Positions 17,105 to 19,719 of a stretch of DNA of 34,074 nucleotides are shown here, one piece after another. The stretch is from positions 1 through 34,074 of IMG/VR virus record IMGVR_UViG_3300042879_001010. One strand, written 5' to 3'. This DNA comes from a virus. Position numbers and translations under genes: made by a program. Every line of letters begins with the position of its first letter. The first letter of the stretch is position 1. The notes under the pieces are model-generated. The model saw only the letters and a list, made by a program, of their open reading frames with translations, was not told the DNA's origin and did not search any database.

Positions 17105-17249
17105 GTCCTGGGAGATCGTAAAAGCCCTCCCTAGTGTATCTCCTCACCGCAGACTAAGCGATCTCAAGGAGCAGGGCTGGACGATTACTTTCAAGATGTG
17201 CCCAGACAACAAGACGAAGATTTACTTTGGAAAGCCGCCGAAAAAATGA
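17034..17249 (+). CDS. Small winged-helix / helix-turn-helix protein
   Basis: This 71-residue protein has the core MDKLRSLLQRKGGVKSWEIV, then VSPHRRLSDLKEQGWTITFK, a compact winged helix of a type frequent in phages and often placed next to replication genes. AAGGAG is well spaced from the ATG at 17034. Downstream ATGs at 17052 and 17061 are alternatives that shorten the overlap with the zinc-knuckle gene. The stop overlaps the next start (ATGA), so it is probably co-translated with the replication protein that follows. Confidence 0.65.
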   Translation: MFGFKKMTQMDKLRSLLQRKGGVKSWEIVKALPSVSPHRRLSDLKEQGWTITFKMCPDNKTKIYFGKPPKK

Positions 17250-17650
17250 ATGATTTGTTTGAGTCAGGGTTTGATCGGTTTTGGGCGGCATGGCCTAAGA
17301 GCATCCGAAAGGGTGGCAAATCCGCTTGCAAGGCAAGGTGGGCAAAGGGCTATTACGAGACTTGTGCCGATCAGATCATCAAGCACGTTGAGTGGATGAA
17401 AACCACAGACCAGTGGCGTAAGGATGGAGGGGCGTTTATCCCTGCACCATTGGTCTACTTGAACCAACAAAGATGGGATGGGGCTGAGATTCCTGAATCC
17501 TTTGGTGTTCCAGTTGCACAACAAATTGATCCTGCTTTGGTAAAAATCCACCAGGACAGGGCAAAAGCAGTAGCCATGCCAGAAGAAATCCGTAAAAAAT
17601 TTATGGAGTTGCGTAAAAAACCTGTTGCAAGCCAGCAAAACCTGTGTTAA
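17246..17650 (+). CDS. Replication-initiation-like protein (replisome recruitment domain)
   Basis: This 134-residue protein resembles the C-terminal module of phage replication proteins. It has FDRFWAAWPKSIRKGGKSAC at residues 9-28, an Ala/Lys-rich helix, IIKHVEWMKTTDQWRKDGG, and FIPAPLVYLNQQRWDGAE. In related proteins the FIP.P..(Y/W)LN..RW element follows an origin-binding winged helix. Here that helix may be the separate 71-residue protein encoded just upstream, as if a two-domain initiator were split into two coupled genes. No helicase or primase gene is present, so recruitment of the host helicase is the likely role. A strongly structured region begins immediately at the stop. Confidence 0.65.
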   Translation: MNDLFESGFDRFWAAWPKSIRKGGKSACKARWAKGYYETCADQIIKHVEWMKTTDQWRKDGGAFIPAPLVYLNQQRWDGAEIPESFGVPVAQQIDPALVKIHQDRAKAVAMPEEIRKKFMELRKKPVASQQNLC

Positions 17651-17653
17651 TCT
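17625..17653 (+). promoter_or_regulatory. Weak candidate promoter for the structured RNA
   Basis: TTGCAA (17625-17630) and TAATCT (17648-17653) are separated by 17 bases and would start transcription near 17660. Matches to consensus are modest (4/6 and 3/6). The RNA could equally be the 3' part of the early-operon transcript. Confidence 0.3.
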
Positions 17654-17812
17654 CACGCTGTCAGATGTGGCAGTCTGGCAGTGAGAGATTCCGAACCCCA
17701 GTCTATTTAGGTGGGGCTTGTGTAGTTTCAGACAAGACTCTTGGAGTCTCTCACTTGCCTGATTCTGCCCACGCCAAGGGCCATGCCCCTCCTAAGTTGA
17801 CTGGGGTTTTTT
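17649..17812 (+). ncRNA. Candidate structured RNA with intrinsic terminator
   Basis: Several helices can be read directly. (1) AATCTCACG CTGTCAGA (17649-17665) pairs with TCTGGCAG TGAGAGATT (17674-17690) through 17 positions with one A-A mismatch and an 8-base loop. (2) CCCCAGTC (17696-17703) pairs with GACTGGGG (17799-17806). (3) Stacked inside it, TTAGG-T-GGGGC (17707-17717) pairs with GCCCC-T-CCTAA (17785-17795). (4) Inside that, TTGT/ACAA (17718-17735) and AGACTC/GAGTCT (17735-17749) form small hairpins. Six Ts follow helix 2. GTGAGAGA (17681-17688) can instead pair perfectly with TCTCTCAC (17747-17754), which would open helix 1 and the last hairpin, so a switch is conceivable. No protein frame of substance is seen. 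No known RNA family was recognised. Confidence 0.65.
17785..17812 (+). terminator. Intrinsic terminator closing the structured RNA
   Basis: The 3' arms GCCCC-T-CCTAA and GACTGGGG pair with 17696-17717 and are followed directly by TTTTTT (17807-17812). It would end the early transcript that includes the replication-like protein, or a separate small RNA. The hairpin is unusual in enclosing about 67 bases that contain further helices. Confidence 0.65.
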
Positions 17813-18027
17813 CTTTGGCTGACCCGCACGACTCCGGTTAGTCATGGGCCTGAATGGGCTGCAAGTCAGAATACACCGCACCAGTTACACCCGCTGGCTA
17901 AACGCGATCCAACTTGGTTGAGGTATGGATAGTCCCGTTGGTAACTCAGGTGGAAAGCTAGGCCAACGTGGGAAGCGAATCAACCCGTCTAGCGCACTTG
18001 GTCTTTTTGTGATTTTGATTGACCTTT

Positions 18028-18042
18028 TAGGGTAAATCCTCA
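18028..18042 (+). promoter_or_regulatory. Degenerate copy of the TAGGG palindrome
   Basis: TAGGG TAAAT CCTCA keeps the left arm and spacer of the intact copies at 18214 and 19705, but the right arm is altered and no ATG follows directly. It may be a decayed or weaker binding site. Confidence 0.4.
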
Positions 18043-18061
18043 TAGAAAGATGGAGCAGGTA

Positions 18062-18083
18062 GGATAAGAATCCCATCTTATCC
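18062..18083. repeat. Perfect 8-bp inverted repeat
   Basis: GGATAAGA and TCTTATCC flank the six bases ATCCCA. No T-run follows, so a terminator is unlikely. It sits 15 bases before a short gene without a Shine-Dalgarno sequence and may be an operator or an RNA element controlling that cluster. Confidence 0.55.
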
Positions 18084-18098
18084 ACCCTAGCCAGAACT

Positions 18099-18221
18099 AT
18101 GTCAAAACAAATCATGACTTACTTTGAAGCAAAGACAATCCTTGACCGGCTCAAAGAAGGTTGGAGTTATCCAGCGCACATTGTTGACCAGGCTTTGAGA
18201 TTAACTGGAGACTTAGGGTAA
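18099..18221 (+). CDS. 40-residue hypothetical protein
   Basis: The predicted peptide is mostly two helices (MTYFEAKTILDRLKEGW, then IVDQALRLTGDLG). I recall short proteins of this style in phages of Burkholderiales, with no known function. The ATG at 18099 lacks a Shine-Dalgarno sequence and an in-frame ATG at 18114 is an alternative. Its last codons, Leu-Gly-TAA, fall inside the palindrome at 18214-18228, whose final base is the first base of the next ATG. Confidence 0.5.
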   Translation: MSKQIMTYFEAKTILDRLKEGWSYPAHIVDQALRLTGDLG

Positions 18222-18228
18222 ATCCCTA
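18214..18228 (+). promoter_or_regulatory. TAGGG-N5-CCCTA palindrome joining two genes
   Basis: TAGGG TAAAT CCCTA has perfect 5-base arms. The stop TAA of the upstream gene occupies the loop, and the ATG of the next gene starts on the last base. AGGG lies at Shine-Dalgarno distance (9 bases) from that ATG and would be masked if the arms pair in RNA, so translation of the upstream gene could open it. A protein-binding DNA operator is the alternative. Confidence 0.6.
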
Positions 18229-19465: not shown

Positions 19466-19712
19466 GTTGAATCAAAAGGAGCGAATCCACCTGGCAAGGG
19501 TGAAGGAGCTGCCCTGTTCTGTGTGTGATTCAAAAGAAGGATCAGAGGCTCATCATGTTGTTCAGGGACTGCAATACACCTGCATTGCTCTATGTCCTGA
19601 TTGCCACAGGGGGTCTTTCAACGGGATACATGGACAAAAGAGGATGTGGTCTGTCATGAAGATGACGGAGATGGATGCGCTCAATGTCACTTTGATGCGT
19701 CTATTAGGGTAA
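19452..19712 (+). CDS. HNH / treble-clef nuclease-like protein (Ref-like)
   Basis: This 86-residue protein has a zinc-binding frame: CSVC (Cys22, Cys25), EAHHV (His34, His35), then ALCPDCHRG (Cys48, Cys51, His52) and NGIHG (Asn57, His60). This order is that of HNH nucleases and resembles the core of the P1 Ref family or NinG-type proteins that sit beside NinB. Its likely role is nicking or cutting during recombination. The 3' end, Leu-Leu-Gly-TAA, falls inside the palindrome at 19705-19719. Assignment to Ref rather than another HNH family is tentative. Confidence 0.7.
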   Translation: MLNNKLNQKERIHLARVKELPCSVCDSKEGSEAHHVVQGLQYTCIALCPDCHRGSFNGIHGQKRMWSVMKMTEMDALNVTLMRLLG

Positions 19713-19719
19713 GTCCCTA
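19705..19719 (+). promoter_or_regulatory. TAGGG-N5-CCCTA palindrome after the HNH gene
   Basis: TAGGG TAAGT CCCTA followed by TGGATA. A 22-base stretch is identical to that around 18214 except at one base. The upstream stop is again in the loop. The ATG at 19719 opens a 33-codon frame (19719-19820) that overlaps the next gene and may be a leader or a decayed gene. Confidence 0.6.

Follow-up and report, generated by a model that had tools for sequence, protein, structure and literature searches.

GOLLD and ROOL are large, ornate RNAs associated with phages, and morons are phage transcription units that work autonomously, each being equipped with a promoter and a terminator. Accessory phage modules are usually regarded as protein genes. 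GOLLD is described in PMC12286853 as named for a lake metagenome. The cassette described here recurs in well over 100 freshwater phage contigs (lake and river), and its conserved product consists of two folded RNAs, termed A and B.

The starting point was the window, a complete 34,074-base IMG/VR record of a tailed phage, in which the terminase was identified by profile match. An earlier note on this sequence had proposed a new structured RNA with a possible switch at 17649–17812, following a replication-like gene, and had suggested an attenuator, an anti-host small RNA or an origin RNA as its role.

Materials and methods

Homologues were gathered from viral contigs through the neighbouring replication gene, exact patterns and local nhmmer searches, and counts from pattern searches are among the matches listed. 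In the type II pseudoknot, MAFFT misplaced certain rows by a single base, so that type II elements were scored without alignment; a one-base shift also affected helix Pa (window row). The structure of B1 was drawn by hand from its alignment, the automatic RNAalifold consensus being poor. All coordinates are those of the window, and the genes and RNA elements mapped in it lie on its plus strand.

Results

The upstream gene (17246–17650, 134 aa) encodes a replication initiation or primosomal protein, matching PHROG 9474 and 270 ('replication initiation protein') with E-values of 7e-14 and 3e-11. The gap, of 448 nt as previously described, runs from its stop codon (17650) to the next ATG (18099), which opens a 40-codon ORF read from the sequence (MSKQIMTYFEAKTILDRLKEGWSYPAHIVDQALRLTGDLG, 18099–18221); a small protein resembling it is found 3' of B1 in phage MW202484 (L002). 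A small intergenic repeat hairpin, GGGTAAATCCC/T, occurs three times in the window (18030–18040, 18216–18226 and 19707–19717; 0.7 copies expected), and was seen too in relatives, L024 and L065 among them.

Element A (about 17660–17812) is certainly a conserved structured RNA, with a promoter-like sequence on its 5' side and a predicted intrinsic terminator at its 3' end. The minimum free energy of 17640–17830 was -84.2 kcal/mol, against a dinucleotide-shuffle mean of -58.6 (z -5.5; none of 200 shuffles was as stable), and the stretch from the predicted transcription start (17660–17812) gave z -5.3 against shuffles. Element A opens with hairpin P1 (17660–17679), a 7-bp stem with the loop GUGGCA, of which UGGCA is conserved in 30 type I sequences. 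The 5' strand of a pseudoknot helix (AGTGAGAGATTCCG, 17680–17693) comes next and forms 14 consecutive pairs with the 3' strand TGGAGTCTCTCACT (17742–17755). The terminator stem, whose 5' arm (17693–17717) pairs with 17785–17809, consists of 11 + 7 + 5 pairs separated by U-U mismatches and encloses smaller hairpins; its 3' arm and the U-tract TTTTTT (17807–17812) constitute the predicted intrinsic terminator (17785–17812), as read from the fold and the type I alignment. That alignment also places hairpin P4 at 17767–17781 (loop ACGCCAA); the GCCA of its loop could kiss the UGGC of the P1 loop, a contact whose bases are invariant and hence give no covariation signal.

The hairpins, the six-T end and the two octamers singled out earlier were all found where they had been placed, 17681–17688 (GTGAGAGA) being complementary to 17747–17754 (TCTCTCAC). 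The first hairpin is indeed present from 17649, but its outer 5' arm TCTCAC (17651–17656) overlaps the predicted -10 box and shows no conservation; likewise, the proposed extent of 17649–17812 captures a real element A but stops short of conserved structure that continues to about 18101.

The type I form of A, to which the window belongs, is marked by P1 with its UGGCA loop and a following strand that pairs into the terminator domain. Full-length similarity was found in L004 (E 8e-38 with the window's own profile) and in L003 (E 3.6e-15 in the window with the L003 profile), and was weaker in the L149 group (E 6.7e-7). A GC-rich stem with a U-tract closes every aligned member of A, and GGGGTTTTT in the 3' terminator region is retained in all 30 aligned type I relatives. 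The sequences of the pseudoknot strands differ widely, as in L003 (CATCACCCGATTA/TAATCGGGTGGTG) compared with the window, and the long-range helix nevertheless averaged 12.2 consecutive bp across 35 distinct relatives, against 8.1 (maximum 9.0) for permuted pairings.

In type II elements, P1 is a stem of 5 bp, and its loop forms 7 bp with a strand that separates two helices within the terminator domain. This pairing was complementary at 7/7 positions in 74 of 79 distinct elements, the five misses looking like mis-parsed hairpin starts; counted by distinct loop sequence, 23 of 27 were fully complementary, against 3.5 by permutation. Type III (L104 and others) shares the layout of types I and II as judged by eye; layout and position are what unites the three types as a group.

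Compensatory changes are thus abundant in type I A and type II A, as they are in B1 (below), so that the covariation test proposed for the locus was passed. The possibility that the hairpins are stable by chance, or that a coding region had gone unrecognised, draws on an open frame at 17644–17841, which overlaps A, and on a hypothetical protein (UOF77725.1, 33533–33892) that the depositors of MW202484 annotated over the A-B1 cassette and that is probably a spurious gene. A protein-coding gene was rejected as a candidate: many homologues have stops in these frames, their lengths are not divisible by three, conservation of a coding frame was not seen among them, and the compensatory changes are overwhelming; this explanation is refuted and retains a negligible probability.

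No known family accounts for the locus either. With Rfam 15, no match was obtained at the gathering threshold in the window and 15 related loci, and relaxed thresholds returned chance-level matches alone; the GOLLD and ROOL covariance models had no match in the same sequences, and ARAGORN predicted no tRNA or tmRNA. The proposal of a new structured RNA outside known families is borne out by the zero Rfam matches together with the massive covariation in homologues. The element was likewise unreported in the titles and abstracts of the literature searched. Within this scope, the absence of Rfam matches and the two-RNA modular layout mark the cassette as new in structure and arrangement.

A predicted sigma-70 promoter precedes A (17625–17653), with TTGCAA (17625–17630) and TAATCT (17648–17653) separated by a 17-nt spacer, and a promoter-like sequence stands at the same position in homologues. 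Transcription would start at about 17660. In homologues, the best -35/-10 match 5' of P1 averaged 10.0/12, compared with 6.3 for random stretches and 7.1 for shuffled upstream sequence, and matches of at least 10/12 occurred in 83 of 131 upstream sequences versus 4 of 3000 background sequences. The window promoter is among the weaker ones, with 8/12 in the scan, where it was scored on an overlapping register.

The layout of A, a pseudoknot followed by a terminator, is common among riboswitches, and the order promoter-A-terminator-B-D is fixed. Both features speak for a cis-acting leader, with A as an attenuator (aptamer-like pseudoknot plus terminator) and B1-D as a 5' leader, giving riboswitch-like gating of B and the downstream gene; we consider this possible, though it is the view of a minority share of our confidence. 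A may be an attenuator. The two mutually exclusive folds put forward earlier were not supported, however, because the supposed alternative helix of GTGAGAGA and TCTCTCAC is the conserved fold itself in 35 relatives: the pseudoknot forms within the loop of the terminator, and the two can coexist. For the competing outer arm of the first hairpin, pairing reached 3.9 bp, against 3.85 for shuffled sequence. No conserved antiterminator partner for the terminator 3' arm was found in type I (5.7 versus 6.2 shuffled) or type II (5.2 versus 4.9 shuffled), and with no conserved alternative partner a switch lacks sequence support; mutually exclusive terminator and antiterminator folds, the mark of a riboswitch or attenuator, were not seen.

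Comparative analysis places a second structured RNA, B1 with hairpin D, behind A at about 17825–18101. With nhmmer, the B1 region was located in 168 places, of which 147 are distinct and include flanks. In an alignment of 33 representatives, the core (17825–18001) has six tested helices, one of which is a pseudoknot; 97.8% of cells were paired, versus 79.3% when shuffled and at most 42% in slid controls, double-sided changes occurred at 25 of 31 pairs, and the covariation score was 0.509 against 0.150 shuffled. The 6-bp pseudoknot, formed in the window by GGTTGA (17916–17921) and TCAACC (17980–17985), was paired in 100% of cells across the 33 sequences, with double-sided changes at four of the six pairs. 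G-U pairs dominate at several positions (columns 25–40, 99–107 and 119–157), which fits an RNA made from the plus strand. The plain MFE fold of B1 has a z near +1, and a search based on folding energy alone would therefore overlook this RNA.

Hairpin D and the 3' tail of B1 (GGATAAG, CTTATCCACCC, CTATG in order; 18050–18101, 3' limit approximate) were found by exact search 3' of B1 in the great majority of loci, namely 97 of 112 by pattern, most of the other 15 being visibly variant; the tail 3' of D reads CACCC-UUGG-GAAC-CUAUG. B1 and D are probably one RNA of about 280 nt, since the GGUG(G/A) loop of B1 pairs with (C/U)CACC of D. In the window, the GGTGG of this Pg loop (AGGTGGAA, 17948–17955) faces the CCACC of D. 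Across 117 distinct loci the pairing was GGTGG-CCACC in 72 and GGTGA-TCACC in 14; one or both sides were unread in 28, mostly owing to the search pattern, and three A-C reads are probably pattern artefacts, CGGTGG also occurring in those loci. B1-D would fold via at least two long-range pseudoknots.

Hairpin D lies between two copies of a Shine-Dalgarno-like motif, as in CTTGGAGAA-hairpin-CTTGGAGAA with CCTATG next in order (window 18050–18101; L002, L081, L326). The B3 RNAs carry a similar duplicated motif before their ATG that varies among phages and matches within each (GAAGAGGAA/AAAGAGGAA; AAGGACAC twice).

In many phages the end of B1-D directly abuts a start codon preceded by GGAG, often that of a replication gene, which makes a leader role conceivable and counts against action in trans. 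The downstream gene varies by phage, however: a start codon follows D in 95 loci, about 29 of which have an ORF of at most 18 codons, and a replication gene, a DNA-modification-like gene, ORFs of 3–14 codons and others are all represented, so that no constant class of gene follows. As the CUAUG of D is often succeeded by only 3–14 codons, B1-D cannot be regarded just as a leader for a single gene.

The two RNAs are closely linked: 136 of 139 distinct A elements are followed by a structured B RNA (B1–B4) on the same strand. The combinations observed were I-B1 (18), I-B2 (11), I-B3 (13), II-B1 (77), II-B2 (1), II-B3 (4), II-B4 (2) and III-B1 (10), so the types mix freely, as would be expected of interchangeable, recombining modules. 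Conversely, the search detected no A for 22 of the 151 B-type elements, although an A-like element is visible by eye in at least L002 and L119. Covariation in the other B classes is preliminary, coming from 5 and 13 representatives, with 16 covarying pairs in B2 (7.5 column-shuffled) and 8 in B3 (2.4), respectively. The fourth class, B4 (L322, L006), starts like B1 (CCTCAGAGCGGGTTAGCTAAT) and then diverges. Extra stem-enclosed inserts of 90–200 nt lie between A and B1 in L106, L141, L144, L139 and L103; the L141 insert was considered as a tRNA in view of its T-arm-like GGTTCGATTCC, yet ARAGORN predicts none.

Proximity to replication genes would suit a replication-origin RNA or primer: among the matches listed, 31 of 51 pattern-found loci with enough flank have a replication-initiator homologue within 2.5 kb upstream or downstream, often within about 170 nt. 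The cassette is not tied to such genes, however, as in other phages its neighbours are a scaffold-like and a capsid gene on either side (L304, L187, L270), or it comes directly behind the terminase (L265) or a RuvC-like gene (L151, L241), these neighbours being named from our own reading and not by profile search, and the window has no GC-skew switch at the locus. These positions in other phages largely refute the origin RNA suggested earlier, which we now hold to be highly improbable. Small zinc-ribbon-like ORFs (MRICKCGGVV.../MRLCSCGGVI...) lie right behind the cassette in L012 and L265, phages that are otherwise different.

At the scaffold-capsid site, A and B were both present in 12 loci, B alone in 5, and neither in 54 related loci. 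Where the site is filled, as in L187, the cassette comes after the T-run that ends the terminator upstream and before TTGACA of the capsid promoter; L346 is an empty example. A separate promoter-like sequence for the capsid gene thus lies 3' of the cassette, which weighs against a cis-acting leader. Presence in about 17 loci against absence in 54 at one site between conserved genes suggests an RNA-only 'moron', and the promoter and terminator signatures agree with this, the promoter being weaker in the window. Exchange of the cassette between phages, or its mobility, is probable from this distribution. In loci L327–L406, the leader 5' of the capsid ATG resembles a conserved structured element (GACAACCGCAAGGCC ... 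AAGTC..GGCCC ... GGACAACC), which occurs in phages with and without the cassette.

The same presence and absence, together with several B classes at equivalent places and the large size, multiple pseudoknots and many invariant unpaired bases of the RNA, could also be explained if B1-D (and B2–B4) were catalytic or mobile, ribozyme-like selfish RNAs that spread from one intergenic site to another and for which A served as the transcription unit. This we consider unlikely, as no similarity to group I or II introns or known ribozymes emerged at low thresholds and neither a nuclease nor a reverse transcriptase was noticed in the flanks read.

Searches of phage collections returned one relative, MW202484, and scans of genome collections one phage-like contig. 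The latter, the sole match in cellular genomes, was binned in a Comamonadaceae MAG and suggests, with uncertainty, a host among the Burkholderiales.

Discussion

We give about even chances to the reading that the locus is an RNA-only cassette for a pair of stable folded RNAs acting in trans, the trans role itself being a guess. A host sigma-70 promoter would drive synthesis of RNA A, a compact, pseudoknotted molecule of about 150 nt whose 3' end would be set by its own intrinsic terminator, and B1-D (about 280 nt) would be transcribed by polymerases that read through that terminator or that arrive from genes further upstream. The A+B pair would be inserted between genes as a 'moron', gained and lost at fixed sites, with A and B recombining as interchangeable modules. 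The stable RNAs would then target the host or competing phages or elements instead of one adjacent gene, and a protein would probably assist them. Somewhat more tentatively, and a little short of even, we propose an RNA-only moron made of a constant, promoter-driven A in three structural types and an exchangeable B1–B4, acting in trans on the host cell or its defences.

A difficulty for action in trans is that a clear promoter is lacking for B itself, which is preceded by a strong terminator, so that A could gate B in cis; the strict order of A then B is also left unexplained if A simply acts alone. Since A and B vary separately yet stay together, their interplay can be tested by module swaps. 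If action in trans is correct, the cassette would represent a new means by which phages manipulate their hosts and a new structural target; if action is in cis, it would add new classes of regulatory RNA.

Among known systems, GOLLD and ROOL resemble the cassette in being elaborate, pseudoknotted, phage-encoded RNAs, whereas the cassette has no Rfam match in any part, is smaller and is organised as a promoter-A-terminator-B pair. The fluoride and preQ1 riboswitches similarly have a 5' pseudoknot followed by an intrinsic terminator with a U-tract, but the pseudoknot of A is compatible with its terminator, and the cassette has neither an antiterminator nor a constant regulated gene. The 6S RNA of lambda (the short pR'-tR' leader) and the immunity RNAs of P4 and P1 are likewise short phage RNAs running from a strong promoter to a terminator; no sequence or Rfam relationship to them was found, and A differs in occupying varied loci, almost always with B behind it. 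Packaging RNA of the phi29 type is also a pseudoknotted phage RNA of similar size, yet the cassette has no Rfam match at the gathering threshold and a different genome context. Like phage morons, the cassette carries promoter and terminator signatures, lies between genes and is present or absent in close relatives; unlike them, its conserved content is structured RNA instead of protein.
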